From contig NZ_CP026115.2 of the NCBI RefSeq assembly GCF_009883635.2, positions 434,001 to 498,000 on the forward strand: 64,000 bases of DNA, read 5' to 3'. The translations under genes were made by a program, and so were the position numbers. The notes below the pieces were generated by a model. That model saw only the letters and a program-made list of their open reading frames with translations, ran no database searches and was not told the origin of the DNA. The stretch comes from Pseudomonas putida (GTDB taxonomy: Bacteria > Pseudomonadota > Gammaproteobacteria > Pseudomonadales > Pseudomonadaceae). The stretch's first letter is position 1. Every line of letters begins with the position of its first letter. Of this stretch, positions 5 to 28,428 are shown one piece after another.

Positions 5-24
5 TACTGTACGCACATACAGCA
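5..24 (+). promoter_or_regulatory. LexA (SOS) box upstream of DUF1654 gene
   Basis: The 16-mer CTGTACGCACATACAG at 7-22 keeps both invariant half-sites, CTGT and ACAG, separated by 8 bases, which is the gamma-proteobacterial LexA operator pattern. It lies about 20 bp before the GTG start of the next gene, so a LexA dimer bound here should block its transcription. The -35 region lies outside the window. Confidence 0.8.
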
Positions 25-42
25 CAACAAGGAATCGCCTCC

Positions 43-285
43 GTGGCCAACACCGCCGAAGCAACCGCAAGCAGCTACCAGCAACTGGGCCTGCGCATCC
101 AGAAGATCATCAACAATCCTCTCGCCCAGCGCAGCCGCGCCGCGCTGATCTTCCGCCTGGAGCACGAGTCGCCCGATGATTGGGCAACCCTGCTCGAGGA
201 AATCGCCGAGAACGACAACGTCACCCTCGCCCACCGCGACGACGGCGGCGTGCAGATCTTCTGGACCGTGCCGAAAGAGGATTGA
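43..285 (+). CDS. DUF1654 family protein, probably SOS-regulated
   Basis: This is an 80-residue cytosolic protein starting at GTG (43), with an AAGGAAT-type ribosome site just upstream. The body (SYQQLGLRIQKIINNPLAQ, then a DDWATLLEEIAENDNV stretch and a DDGGVQIFWTVPKE end) matches the small Pseudomonas DUF1654 family, which has no established biochemical function. The length is normal for the family. A LexA box sits immediately upstream, so induction by DNA damage is inferred. It converges with the HD-domain gene, with only 3 bases between the two stop codons. No catalytic motif can be seen and the molecular role is unknown. Confidence 0.85.
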   Translation: MANTAEATASSYQQLGLRIQKIINNPLAQRSRAALIFRLEHESPDDWATLLEEIAENDNVTLAHRDDGGVQIFWTVPKED

Positions 286-8886: not shown

Positions 8887-8948
8887 GGTGAAGCTCCTGA
8901 GGGTGTCTGCGGTAAGCATAGACACCCTCAGGTTTTGCTTTGTCAGTG

Positions 8949-9046
8949 CCGGCCCTTCGCGGCTAAAGCCGCTCCTACAGGGATATCACCGCCCGTGGGG
9001 CCTGTGCTGTGCCTGTGGGAGCGGCTTTAGCCGCGAAGAGGCAGGT
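8949..9046. repeat. REP pair (GCGGCTAAAGCCGC type), inverted
   Basis: CTTCGCGGCTAAAGCCGCTC at 8956-8975 and its inverse GAGCGGCTTTAGCCGCGAAG at 9019-9038 form a large inverted repeat between the small hypothetical gene and ahpF. Confidence 0.75.
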
Positions 9047-9051
9047 ACGGC

Positions 9052-10614
9052 TTACGCCGGCGCCGAAGTGCGGATCAGGTGATCGAACGCCGCCAGCGAA
9101 GCCTTGGCGCCCTCGCCTACCGCGATGACGATCTGCTTGTATGGCACGGTGGTCACATCCCCTGCAGCAAACACACCCGGCACACTGGTCTGGCCCTTGG
9201 CGTCGACGATGATCTCGCCACGCGGCGAAAGCTCGACCGTGCCTTTGAGCCAATCGGTGTTCGGCAGCAGCCCGATTTGCACAAAGATGCCTTCCAGCGC
9301 CAGGTCATGCACCTCATCGGTGCTGCGGTCCTTGTAACGCAAGCCCGTCACTTTCTCGCCATTGCCAACCACCTCGGTGGTCAGCGCGCTGGTGATCACC
9401 TTGACGTTCGGCAGGCTGTGGAGCTTGCGCTGCAGCACCGCGTCGGCACGCAGCTGGCTGTCGAACTCGATCAGCGTTACCTGGGCAACGATACCGGCCA
9501 GGTCGATGGCCGCTTCCACGCCAGAGTTGCCGCCGCCAATCACCGCCACGCGCTTGCCCTTGAACAGCGGGCCGTCACAGTGCGGGCAGTAGGCCACGCC
9601 ACGGGCGCGGTACTCCTGCTCGCCCGGCACATTCATTTCACGCCAACGGGCACCGGTGGCGAGGATCACGGTCTTGGCCTTGAGCGAGGCGCCGCCCGCC
9701 AGGCGCACTTCGTGCAGGCCGCCGTCGGTGGCCGGGATCAACGCTTCACCGCGCTGCAGGTTCATGATGTCGACGTCGTACTGCTTGACGTGCTCTTCCA
9801 GCGCCGTGGCCAGCTTCGGCCCTTCGGTCTCTTGTACCGAGATGAAGTTCTCGATGGCCAGGGTGTCGAGCACCTGGCCGCCGAAACGCTCGGCAGCGAC
9901 ACCGGTGCGGATGCCTTTGCGTGCGGCATAGATGGCCGCTGCAGCGCCGGCAGGCCCACCGCCGACCACCAGCACGTCAAAGGCATCCTTGGCGTTGATC
10001 TTCTCGGCCTGGCGGCTACCTGCGTTGGTGTCGATCTTGCCGAGGATTTCTTCAAGGCCCATGCGGCCCTGGCCGAACACTTCGCCGTTCAGGTAGATGC
10101 TCGGCACCGCCATGATCTTGCGCGACTCGACTTCATCCTGGAACAGTGCACCGTCGATGGCCACGTGGCGCACATTGGGGTTGAGCACCGCCATCAGGTT
10201 CAGTGCCTGGACCACGTCCGGGCAGTTCTGGCACGACAGCGAGAAGTAGGTTTCGAAGGTGAACTCGCCTTCCAGTGCCTGGATCTGCTCGATCACTTCG
10301 GCGCTGGCCTTGGACGGATGGCCGCCGACTTGCAGCAGCGCCAGCACCAGGGAGGTGAATTCGTGGCCCATGGGGATGCCGGCAAAGCGCAAGCTTATGT
10401 CGGCACCCGGGCGGTTCAGCGAGAACGAAGGGCGACGGGCGTCACTGCCGTCCGCGCTGAAGGTAATGAGGTTCGACAGGCCGGCGATTTCCACCAGCAG
10501 GTCGTGCAATTCGCGGGACTTCGCGCCGTCGTCGAGGGAGGCAACGATCTCGATCGGCTGGGTGACCCGCTCCAGGTAGGTTTTCAGTTGCGATTTAAGC
10601 GTGGCGTCCAACAT
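9052..10614 (-). CDS. ahpF: Alkyl hydroperoxide reductase subunit F
   Basis: A 520-residue NADH-dependent flavoprotein disulfide reductase that reduces AhpC. The N-terminal double-thioredoxin module carries [11 protein letters not shown] (CxxC near residue 130). The FAD domain starts at [21 protein letters not shown], and the redox-active CPHC is in [10 protein letters not shown]; the NAD domain has [13 protein letters not shown]. Length equals E. coli AhpF. The ATG at 10614 has AAGGAAT upstream. It lies downstream of ahpC on the same strand with a hairpin terminator between, so a partial read-through or secondary promoter would set its level. Confidence 0.95.
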
Positions 10615-10645
10615 ACGGGCGATTCCTTTTTCAAAACTCGGATAC

Positions 10646-10677
10646 AAAAACGCCCAGGCGAGTTCGCCCGGGCGCTT
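10646..10677 (-). terminator. Hairpin terminator between ahpC and ahpF
   Basis: GC-rich stem CGCCC(A)GGCGA / CGCCCGGGCG followed on the minus strand by TTTTTG. It should attenuate transcription from ahpC into ahpF. Confidence 0.7.
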
Positions 10678-26290: not shown

Positions 26291-26485
26291 TCAGTCGTCC
26301 AGGTCGTCGTGCCAGGCTGGGTGATCGCGCTCTTCGTCATCGAGGTCATCCAGCAGCTCTTCGTCTTCCTCGACCTCGTCCTCGGCGCCTTGGGCATCCG
26401 CTTCAGGGTCGTAGTCTTCATAGTGGAATTCGTGATCGAGCAGGTGATCGTGCTCGGGTTCGTGCAAGTCGTCTTCGTCGCGCAT
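26291..26485 (-). CDS. Very acidic small protein
   Basis: A 64-residue protein, about half Asp/Glu, with several His (RDEDDLHEPEHDHLLDHEF and DEELLDDLDDEERDHP). CAGGAG lies just before the ATG at 26485, a strong ribosome site. It has no signal peptide or membrane segment. Such composition fits a metal-binding or nucleic-acid-mimicking protein, but this is only a suggestion. It converges with the DoxX gene. Confidence 0.6.
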   Translation of the reverse strand: MRDEDDLHEPEHDHLLDHEFHYEDYDPEADAQGAEDEVEEDEELLDDLDDEERDHPAWHDDLDD

Positions 26486-26609
26486 GGTGGCTCCTGGAAA
26501 TCTGGCTCGCCTGTATAGGCGCATCGTTGGCGGTGGTCAATGGATTGCGGTTAATGCTGACTTAACCAGCGGGCCTCAGGCTGAAATCTCTCCCTTCAAA
26601 ACGTCTGTT

Positions 26610-26634
26610 GCCCGCCTTCATGGCGGGCTTTTTT
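26610..26634 (+). terminator. Terminator 1 of 3
   Basis: GCCCGCC / GGCGGGC stem with a TTCAT loop and T6. Confidence 0.85.
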
Positions 26635-26728
26635 GCTCATGAAGAATGTCGACACGCTATCAACGTGCACTTCACGAGTTCATGACAAGTGCTTTGGCAC
26701 TCTGTCCCTGCTCCGTACGTTCTTTAGG

Positions 26729-26758
26729 ACCCGCCACTGGTTGGCGGGTTTTTCTTTT
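26729..26758 (+). terminator. Terminator 2 of 3
   Basis: ACCCGCC / GGCGGGT stem with a 7-base loop and T-rich tail. Confidence 0.85.
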
Positions 26759-26848
26759 TCCGGGTACTGGAAATGTGTACGGAAGGTTGTCGCATCCTAT
26801 GCCTGAGCGCACGCAGGCGAGCACCTCATCGCCAGAAAAAATCCGAGC

Positions 26849-26872
26849 AAAGCCCTTGAGCCGGGCTTTTCT
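26849..26872 (+). terminator. Terminator 3 of 3
   Basis: AAAGCCC / GGGCTTT stem with a 7-base loop, followed by TCTTT. Confidence 0.75.
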
Positions 26873-26938
26873 TTGGCTTTCACCCGCATACCTGAGCCAC
26901 TTTCTTACCCTTCATCTCCCCTTGCTTGTTTGCAGGCC

Positions 26939-26980
26939 TTGCAAAAAAATCATTCGAATGTACTGTATATGCATACAGCA
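26939..26980 (+). promoter_or_regulatory. SOS promoter: -35 and LexA box for the PL7 gene
   Basis: TTGCAA at 26939 could be the -35. At 26963-26978 lies CTGTATATGCATACAG, a perfect CTGT-N8-ACAG operator with the TACTGTATAT core typical of LexA1 boxes, overlapping the expected -10. The only gene it can drive on this strand is at 27099. Confidence 0.8.
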
Positions 26981-27098
26981 AACACACATTCCAAAACATC
27001 CGCCTGCGCATTCACGAGTGCCCAGCCGGATGCGGAGGAACGCATCATGGTTGGAAGGCAATCGTGCCAGGCCAATGATTTTATCGTCAGGAGTTTTT

Positions 27099-27773
27099 AT
27101 GACCGTAAACATCAGCAATCTAACGATCGCTACCCCAGTGGCAGTCTCTTCAACGAACCCAGTCGCGCTTGAGCTCAATGGCGCCGAGGCCATCGCTGAG
27201 TTCCCCAGCGTGGTAAAAGTGCTTAGCGACGGGTCGGTTCAGTTCACGGCACCGACCAAAGGGGCTTCGAGCAAGAGCACCCACAGAACCCGTTGCGAGT
27301 GGTCGGAGACACAAAACTGGAAGCTGGGCAGCGCCCCGGACCACTGGAATCGCCAGACCATGACCCTGACCAAGGTCAACTCGGCGCAAAAGGTCGTCGT
27401 CAGCCAGATGCACGTCAGGGGGGACGACAGTCCGCCGGTGAAGGTGTTCTGGAACAAGGGCAACATCACCCTGGGTTTCCGGACGTCCTACAACCAGACC
27501 AACCCGGTGAACAGCACCCTCCTGCAGGGCGTGCCGCTTGGCACGAAATTCGACGTGATCATTCACGCCACCTCGGCGGGTGAGGTCAAGGTGACCGCCA
27601 GGTGCAACGGCGTCTCCAGAACATCGAGTGAACTGCAGCTCGATGATAGTTGGGACACTCGCCTGTTCGAATTCCATGGGGGGATCTACAACCAGGTCGA
27701 TTACACCGATGCGACGCCGGCCGATGATGGGTCGGTGTGCATCATCAGTGAGCTTTCGCTTAGCCATGGCTGA
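27099..27773 (+). CDS. Polysaccharide lyase family 7-like protein (alginate lyase 2 fold)
   Basis: A 224-residue protein. The three PL7 motifs can be traced: Arg65 and Glu67 in THRTRCEWSE (family RSELR), Gln103-Met-His105 in VVVSQMHV (family QIH) and Tyr197-Asn-Gln199 in HGGIYNQ (family YFKAGxYxQ). So the catalytic Arg, Gln, His and Tyr are all kept, and lyase activity on alginate or a related uronan is likely by family. There is no signal peptide or membrane segment, odd for a polysaccharide lyase. ATG at 27099 has CAGGAG 5 bases before it. A LexA box is 120 bp upstream and a terminator follows. Confidence 0.75.
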   Translation: MTVNISNLTIATPVAVSSTNPVALELNGAEAIAEFPSVVKVLSDGSVQFTAPTKGASSKSTHRTRCEWSETQNWKLGSAPDHWNRQTMTLTKVNSAQKVVVSQMHVRGDDSPPVKVFWNKGNITLGFRTSYNQTNPVNSTLLQGVPLGTKFDVIIHATSAGEVKVTARCNGVSRTSSELQLDDSWDTRLFEFHGGIYNQVDYTDATPADDGSVCIISELSLSHG

Positions 27774-27791
27774 ATGCCGGGTCCAATGAAT

Positions 27792-27819
27792 AACCCGCAG
27801 ATCCCTTCTGCGGGTTTTT
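27792..27819 (+). terminator. Terminator of PL7 gene
   Basis: AACCCGCAG / CTGCGGGTT stem with a 7-base loop and T5, 18 bp after the stop. Confidence 0.85.
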
Positions 27820-27902
27820 AGAATAGAGAAGGCCGAACGGAATCGAGCCGATATGGCGCGAATCCTTGCCACTCACAACAACCTCTTGCTGGAAGTCCCA
27901 AG

Positions 27903-28082
27903 ATGGGACTACGATACCAATCATTAAGATCATCGCCATCAGCCAGCTTAAGGCGGGAAACCTACCCGGACGCCGAGCAGCCGCTACTCGCATGGATCGA
28001 CGAAGCCAGGAAGGCCACGTGGACCAGTCCGGACGCAATCAAACGGCAGTACACTCATGAATATCCGCCCAATCCGCACTGA
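27903..28082 (+). pseudogene. higB: Remnant of a HigB toxin gene
   Basis: A 59-codon open frame encodes YPDAEQPLLAWIDEARKA and TWTSPDAIKRQY, which matches the middle of HigB-family mRNA-endonuclease toxins. The natural N-terminal part (KIIAISQLK) sits in another frame just upstream, implying a small frameshifting deletion, and the whole C-terminal half after DAIKRQY is missing because the higA start follows at once. Hence toxin activity is expected to be lost. The fragment shares its last 26 bases with higA. Alternative: a chance ORF, but the match is too specific. Confidence 0.7.
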
Positions 28083-28428
28083 CGAAGACTACCGGGCAGC
28101 GCTCAAGGAAATTTCACCACTGTTCGAAAATGAGCCCGAGCCAGGCACCGCTGAGGGTGACTTTTTTGAAGTCATGATCACGTTGATCGAGGCTTACGAG
28201 GCAAAGCATTTTCCGGTTGATTTGCCGGACCCCATCGAAGCCATCAAGTTTCGCATGGAGCAGTCCGGGCTTACTGCTGCGGATCTGGCGCCCGCTATCG
28301 GCAAGACCAATCGGGTGTACGAAGTGCTTAACAGAAAGCGCTCATTGACACTCCCCATGATTTGGAGGTTGCACAAGCTGTTTGGCATACCAGCGGAAAG
28401 CCTGATCAAGCCTGTCAAAGTAGCTTGA
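28057..28428 (+). CDS. higA: HigA-type antitoxin, XRE family
   Basis: A 123-residue protein, start MNIRPIRTDEDYRAALKEIS typical of HigA/HTH antitoxins, with an acidic linker, then an XRE helix-turn-helix (FRMEQSGLTAADLAPAIGKT, then VYEVLNRKRSLTLPMIWRLH). HigA binds and neutralises HigB and represses their operon. The gene is intact although its toxin is broken, so it may persist as a regulator or as an anti-addiction antitoxin. The tRNA-Cys lies 130 bp downstream. Confidence 0.85.
   Translation: MNIRPIRTDEDYRAALKEISPLFENEPEPGTAEGDFFEVMITLIEAYEAKHFPVDLPDPIEAIKFRMEQSGLTAADLAPAIGKTNRVYEVLNRKRSLTLPMIWRLHKLFGIPAESLIKPVKVA

Follow-up and report, generated by a model that had tools for sequence, protein, structure and literature searches.

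A gene for a polysaccharide lyase of family 7 (PL7) in the 64,000-nucleotide stretch of Pseudomonas putida DNA analysed here (hereafter, the window) appears to encode a phage-type soluble enzyme that has been taken in several times, has been kept under DNA-damage control and would be freed by cell lysis. We assign this reading a probability of about 0.65. It is built on features that can be read directly in the DNA, namely, a LexA box and its conservation, repressor genes at other sites, recurring palindromes, phage kin, covariation in the leader RNA and the active site of the enzyme (Table 1).

Table 1 Positions of the lyase gene and of the regulatory and RNA elements around it, in coordinates of the window
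Feature	Position	Strand	Remarks
Terminator-like hairpins (three)	26610-26628, 26726-26752, 26849-26869	+	Consensus scan
LexA (SOS) box CTGTATATGCATACAG	26963-26978		Perfect CTGT-N8-ACAG; tight-motif scan and alignment
Leader RNA hairpin 1	27004-27025	+	10 aligned pairs, one mismatched in the window; common to phage copies
Leader RNA hairpin 2 (GATGCGGAGGAACGCATC)	27029-27046	+	5 pairs; alignment of 39 leaders
PL7 lyase gene (Alginate_lyase2, PF08787; phrog_31475)	27099-27773	+	Intact, 224 aa
Probable terminator AACCCGCAGA-TCCCT-TCTGCGGGTTTTT	27792-27819	+	Read directly; missed by the consensus scan

Fold and active site of the lyase

The product matches the PL7 profile PF08787 along the whole domain (161 bits against a cut-off of 29.7; profile positions 1-225 of 225 in the Pfam scan) and is the only PF08787 match in the window genome, which also contains two matches to PL5 alginate lyases. 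Searched with Foldseek, its AlphaFold2 model (mean pLDDT 95) retrieves PA1167 (1vav, titled alginate lyase in the PDB) as the top match, with an E-value of 2.4e-17 and a TM-score of 0.84, followed by A1-II', and the same two proteins are the sequence matches among solved structures. For residue counts and the tree, 165 lyase proteins were collapsed to 151 distinct rows. R65, Q103, H105 and Y197 are each invariant in all 149 distinct proteins of the subfamily, from hosts and viruses, and are the same in both PA1167-like outgroup proteins; the PDB titles for A1-II' name H191 and Y284 as mutated residues. The second arginine of the PL7 R-x-E-x-R motif, presumably involved in substrate contact, is missing throughout the subfamily: position 69 is K in 118, S in 22, T in 8 and M in 1 of the 149 proteins, and is R in 2/2 outgroup proteins. 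The lyase is therefore like the PA1167/A1-II' type in fold, full-length profile match and the catalytic Arg, Gln, His and Tyr, and unlike it in the replaced arginine and in the low identity to 1vav (23%).

We take the loss of the second arginine as a change of the subfamily that does not bar the lyase from PL7. Because of this loss, the substrate may not be alginate. The initial annotation, which called the product an alginate-lyase-like PL7 protein with the four catalytic residues kept and no export signal, was right on the family, the fold and the residues, whereas alginate as the substrate is unproven. On the missing signal, a heuristic used in place of SignalP agrees with it: a hydrophobic run longer than 6 within the first 35 residues occurs in 0/149 subfamily proteins, and 134 of the 149 have no basic residue in the first 8 positions. 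Most of the PA1167-like paralogues checked by eye also start without an obvious signal, some of their true starts being unclear. The absence of a signal is real, yet not distinctive among Pseudomonas PL7 proteins.

The closest named relatives are encoded in Pseudomonas sp. CC120222-01a (99%) and P. putida KH-21-134 (98%), and 74 of the 398 sampled genomes of the genus carry a member of the subfamily at an E-value of 1e-40 or better. The lyase matches no defence model in PADLOC and, as a single full-length PL7 domain in Pfam, contains no killing domain of the SOS bacteriocin type. The two window neighbours scanned with Pfam are a DoxX protein and an HTH protein, and the gene clusters that flank the lyase recur in L032-L037 and L041. 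As a separate observation, the adjoining HTH protein (28057-28428, + strand) matches PD-Lambda-2_B in PADLOC with 146 bits, and directly before it, at ~27920-28050, an apparent broken toxin reading frame can be recognised by eye.

Probable DNA-damage switches upstream of the lyase genes

The lyase ATG lies 136 nt from the LexA box. Taken alone, the loose pattern CTGT-N8-ACAG is modest evidence: the window contains 4 copies where 0.83 are expected, and 1 of 100 shuffles reached 4. The tight form, CTGTA-N6-TACAG, is found at 11 sites in the 6,190,190-base genome, compared to 0 for the reversed-pattern control, and one of these is the perfect box that the initial annotation had placed before the lyase, which is confirmed. 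Six of the other ten sites precede genes for DinB, an umuC-like IMS polymerase, SRAP, a radical SAM protein, PsiE and a DUF1654 protein; one, at window positions 7-22, is located 20 nt before the ORF 43-285, which is DUF1654-like by eye; and L117, L121 and L122 are without a clear gene assignment. A box lies 10 nt before the start of lexA, and a one-mismatch box ~40 nt before the likely start of recA. The motif, therefore, marks SOS genes in this genome. SOS control of the window lyase is well supported by these comparisons.

Some of these sites deserve mention in their own right. The ORF 43-285 (+ strand, 80 aa) provides a second case of a strong LexA box right before a reading frame; DUF1654, possibly a general SOS gene, is also accompanied by a LexA box in phage loci and at one of the other lyase sites (site B). 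The strong box before the PsiE-family gene (L116; G000:C1:3526965) points to an unusual SOS candidate. A 43-aa reverse ORF over the lyase box (26880-27011) was considered as a DUF1654 relic and not accepted.

The box is separated from the upstream genes by three + strand hairpins that resemble terminators and would shield the lyase transcript from those genes; in the scan of both strands near the lyase, 4 such hairpins were found against 1.4 expected. With these hairpins upstream of the box and no other gene between it and the lyase, its target is most likely the lyase. The claim that the box overlaps a likely -10 element fared less well: a consensus scan for sigma-70-type promoters in 26480-27900 found 0, with 0.9 expected by chance.

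Between the operator and the ATG, 72 of 161 upstream regions, from phages and hosts, share a pattern of two leader hairpins, which is not universal. Leaving out L048, L070, L236, L258 and L261 as misaligned yielded 53 distinct leaders, of which 39 were aligned (L238 is among those omitted). Across the 39 sequences, hairpin 1 is paired in 93.8% of the cells, with 7 of its 10 pairs changing on both sides, and hairpin 2 in 97.9%, with 1 of 5 pairs doing so; for both combined, 95.2% of the pair cells are standard, 8/15 pairs change on both sides, and the covariation is 0.291 compared to 0.112 in shuffled alignments and 0.014-0.112 with slid partners. A folding energy of -44 kcal/mol (z -2.87) is predicted for the window leader. 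Rfam, searched over 26500-27200 with an E-value threshold, gives 6 weak matches, all below the gathering score and all outside the leader hairpins. Two further observations on the leader are that, at several sites, the stretch directly ahead of the ATG (26994-27098 in the window, and equivalents) contains variants of TGATTTTATCGTCAGGAG and that the loop of hairpin 2 in the window contains GGA, which might, purely as an idea, be an RsmA site.

The initial annotation proposed a search for boxes before orthologues, and its outcome is divided. In the named loci, that is, the best 80 of 105 relatives (including, as a miss, L101 with only 27 nt upstream), a perfect CTGT-N8-ACAG lies within 350 nt upstream of the lyase in 23 loci and is absent in 57; the control frequency is 77 in 15427 random 350-nt pieces of the same 80 loci. 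Close orthologues bear out the expectation: in 11 of the 80 loci (L032-L038, L041, L047, L067 and L084) the box has no DUF1654 gene beside it. The other twelve of the 23 boxes, at site B, are near the start of a divergent DUF1654 gene, to which, as far as the gene arrangement tells, the box there more probably belongs than to the lyase. The possibility that all 23 boxes represent LexA control of the lyase was, accordingly, rejected, the lyase at site B being associated with palindromes of the S24a type. All 10 of the upstream regions in the alignment (from the window, L032-L038, L041 and L047) keep TACTGTA-N6-TACAG without a change between diverging flanks, and in L038 and L047 the sequence upstream of the box can hardly be aligned with the others; the box is retained in 8 close relatives (7 of these at the window's site, site A) plus L047. 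The PA1167 type is unlike the window lyase in this respect: a LexA box precedes 0/21 of the PA1167-like genes, and an S24 or DUF1654 gene is present in 0/20 of the loci of these paralogues. Another lyase lineage was observed behind the site-A DoxX gene in L069, L074, L078, L088, L091, L097, L099, L106 and L110, with neither a LexA box nor an S24 gene.

At other sites, the lyase stands behind a gene for a LexA/CI-like S24 repressor, the candidate regulator. Among the best 80 of 105 loci, 37 have an S24 gene within 6 kb of the lyase, always upstream and on the same strand; the whole window genome contains 7 PF00717 matches. The self-cleavage Ser and Lys of the genome's own LexA are kept in 7/7 aligned lyase-linked S24 proteins, and the cleavage position reads A-A-G in S24b and A-M-G in S24a (S-M-G in L092). 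Palindromes were counted over the same best 80 of 105 loci, comprising 1,574,333 bases. At site B, where the S24 repressor gene (one representative matches Peptidase_S24) is located upstream of DUF1654, the S24 gene and the lyase are each preceded by TTTAGC-N5-GCTAAA; allowing up to 2 mismatches, there are 35 copies of this palindrome before the lyase (in 19 loci, 13 at site B and 6 at other sites), another 35 at the S24a promoter and 22 in the remaining sequence. A variant of the S24a operator with a spacer of 4 was discarded, with 1/30 hits before the lyase and alignments that showed a spacer of 5. The 6 loci of site C, flanked by an Smr gene (Pfam, representative) and, judged by eye, by genes resembling PrmB/C and FolE, carry two copies of ATATGGGA-N2-TCCCATAT before the lyase and one at the S24 start; with up to 4 mismatches, the motif is found 12 times before the lyase, 6 times at S24 and 14 times elsewhere in the best 80 of 105 loci. 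G046, a single-contig genome, has just 3 matches with up to 3 mismatches, 1 at the S24 start and 2 at the lyase, and in G135, 2 of 6 such matches fall at the S24-lyase locus. TAGCAG-N2-CTGCTA, the motif of site D (6 loci), is noisy, with 7 copies before the lyase, 6 at S24 and 65 elsewhere.

The operator motifs were derived by inspection of the very loci in which they were counted, related loci are not independent, and the real test is the contrast with the copies elsewhere and with controls rather than the raw counts. In four genomes, 11 of 18 forward matches to the S24a motif (up to 1 mismatch) are at the S24-lyase locus, and the genome-wide totals are not above those of the reversed controls, either for this motif (18 vs 19 in the four genomes) or for that of site C (9 vs 16). 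Thus, only the clustering of the S24 operators is unusual, not their genome-wide counts. In the best 80 of 105 loci, an operator could be assigned in 42; in 8 further loci with no assigned operator, S24 or DUF1654 lies within 6 kb, and 30 have neither an assigned operator nor S24/DUF1654 within 6 kb. Alignments upstream of the operator-less loci yield no trustworthy common motif. Overall, the relatives of the lyase seem to have come under DNA-damage control by several distinct routes.

Phage relatives and competing explanations

Full-length relatives of the lyase are present in 12 of 50,697 phage records, including the jumbo phage Psa21 (54%; two records) and nine P. putida phages (37-38%), and plasmids contribute 1 distant record among 72,556. 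A term search of the accessible text of the Psa21 genome paper returns no mention of the lyase. The window protein matches phrog_31475, a family of unknown function, with 420 bits over 224/224 positions. The phage genes encode a free-standing lyase, as is the case for soluble phage depolymerases. In a quick tree of the 151 proteins, host and virus labels are mixed, with 18 changes, at least 7 of these forced by starred branches, and the window lyase belongs to a 9-row host clade. The initial annotation had proposed release by lysis, an idea that gains weight because the full-length relatives are ordinary phage genes, for which lysis is the usual exit; it had missed the sharing with phages, the S24 operators elsewhere, the link of boxes to DUF1654 and the commonness of signal absence.

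In IMG/VR, 113 stretches contain a relative of the lyase, and 80 of the 113 were fetched. Of these viral loci, 55 have an S24 gene within 8 kb upstream, 58 have DUF1654, and in 60 the 2.5 kb upstream contain a LexA box with at most 1 mismatch, usually at the start of DUF1654. Contigs L213, L215, L216 and L227 resemble host site B, and some IMG/VR contigs may be host DNA. Shared 12-mers between the S24 and lyase upstream regions reach at least 10/12 in 9/55 viral loci, against 29/283 controls, and a 17-nt shared repeat with up to 3 mismatches is present in 16/54, against 89/421. Because these repeats are not clearly above those of control genes, CI repression of the lyase in intact prophages is without support.

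The phage kin would also be expected if the lyase were cargo of a decaying prophage, a leftover with SOS control as a relic and no present host role. The box could then be what remains of a lost DUF1654 promoter, given the usual placement of the viral boxes, and repeated arrivals would account for L036, where two tandem lyases of the subfamily are located at site A (~8900-9600 and 10001-10672), box-less and of the LexA-box type; this pair suggests a second arrival beside an older resident. We consider decay unlikely, given that dN/dS is 0.02-0.12 in 33/33 lyase pairs within the groups of sites A, C and D, that the box is invariant while its flanks are not, and that the active site is kept in 149/149 proteins.

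The position of the gene in phages bears on another explanation. In representatives, one per cluster, the genes after the viral lyase include the Erf, RecE-type exonuclease and SSB families, and the phage lyase often sits between CI/DUF1654 and the recombination genes, a position comparable to that of the lambda pL operon, so that the neighbourhood looks like an early/immunity region. The lyase is not beside lysis genes in the window or in the temperate-phage representatives examined. It might, then, act inside the producing or infected cell or on a polymer other than alginate, for example, in an early phage function, with release being incidental; many temperate-type contigs among the representatives indeed have the lyase at the head of the Erf/RecE-type/SSB region rather than with lysis or tail genes, and the R-x-E-x-R motif is altered. 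This appears rather improbable in view of the full PL7 fold, nearest to PA1167 and A1-II', the invariant Gln, His, Tyr and first Arg, and the placement of the lyase next to a minor tail gene in phage Lauda and ~2 kb before a holin gene in AH02; moreover, we know of no cytosolic uronan polymer in Pseudomonas. A nutritional or biofilm-dispersal lyase with an unrecognised export route and SOS control as a secondary trait, suggested by the PDB title of PA1167 and by the PA1167-like proteins that also seem, by eye, to be signal-less, is very improbable, considering DNA-damage control via several operator types, the phage distribution and the DoxX and HTH proteins as the two window neighbours scanned.

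Proposed mechanism and relation to known systems

If the lyase is, as we favour, a phage-type enzyme under DNA-damage control, LexA bound to the box would keep the window gene off, and DNA damage, through RecA filaments and self-cleavage of LexA, would release a lyase transcript with its own structured leader. At the other sites, the CI/LexA-like S24 repressor encoded upstream would do the job of LexA via its own operators. The cytosolic lyase would be freed when the cell is lysed, be it by tailocin, prophage or explosive lysis, and the proposed explanation for the lack of an export signal is that the protein is made for such release. Once outside, the enzyme would cut acidic, alginate-like exopolysaccharide around siblings or competitors, and matrix cutting would help phage, tailocins or cells to spread. 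Induction, repressor binding, release, substrate and benefit are all parts of this chain that we infer.

The window genome harbors a tailocin-like cluster with an S24 repressor, tail sheath, tail fibre and endolysin-family genes, located between an apparent mutS (by eye) and recA. Work on P. aeruginosa (PMC4834629) and on P. protegens (PMC7815802) describes SOS-linked explosive lysis, by which cytosolic content and tailocins, respectively, are released. A bolder version of the favoured reading, which we hold to be possible at somewhat less than even odds, is that a phage matrix lyase has been repeatedly domesticated as a suicide-delivered public good, each lineage acquiring a new DNA-damage switch (a LexA box or one of three S24 repressor/operator types, in modules that pair a self-cleaving repressor with the lyase), so that dying cells would open the exopolysaccharide for phage, tailocins and kin, with the covarying leader as a second layer of control.

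Several known systems share part of these features. Soluble phage depolymerases, freed at lysis, include alginate lyases of Pseudomonas and Azotobacter phages according to the accessible text of a review (PMC5380687); as far as that text goes, the lyase is like them as a free-standing phage enzyme with no signal and with lysis as the expected exit, and differs in being also fixed at several host chromosomal sites under LexA or S24 repressors. The table of the review, in the form accessible, lists the alginate lyases of PT6 and of Azotobacter phage without a sequence by which their kinship with the lyase could be judged. SOS bacteriocins and tailocins, as portrayed in the accessible parts of PMC4834629 and PMC7815802, likewise combine DNA-damage control, S24 (PrtR-type) repressors and release by lysis, the last being a prediction for the lyase, whereas its product would be a matrix cutter rather than a killer, and no immunity or lysis gene was seen among the partly examined neighbours. 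The resemblance to CI/PrtR-type S24 modules extends to the C-terminal half of S24b (sites C and D), which by eye is similar to that of the tailocin-linked S24 protein of the genome; the difference is that the recognisable target is the lyase gene, with no other operator site in G046 within 3 mismatches. Among open-licence papers, as far as their accessible text goes, we found no report of an SOS-controlled alginate lyase or of a link between SOS and matrix degradation.

What appears to be new, therefore, is the fixed chromosomal form of the lyase together with its apparent repeated rewiring to DNA-damage switches. A PL7 lyase function is suggested for phrog_31475, and release by lysis would give a sequence-level reason for a lyase without an export signal. 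The lyase would link the SOS response to matrix degradation and would be a directly testable case of the domestication of a phage enzyme with independent regulatory rewiring.
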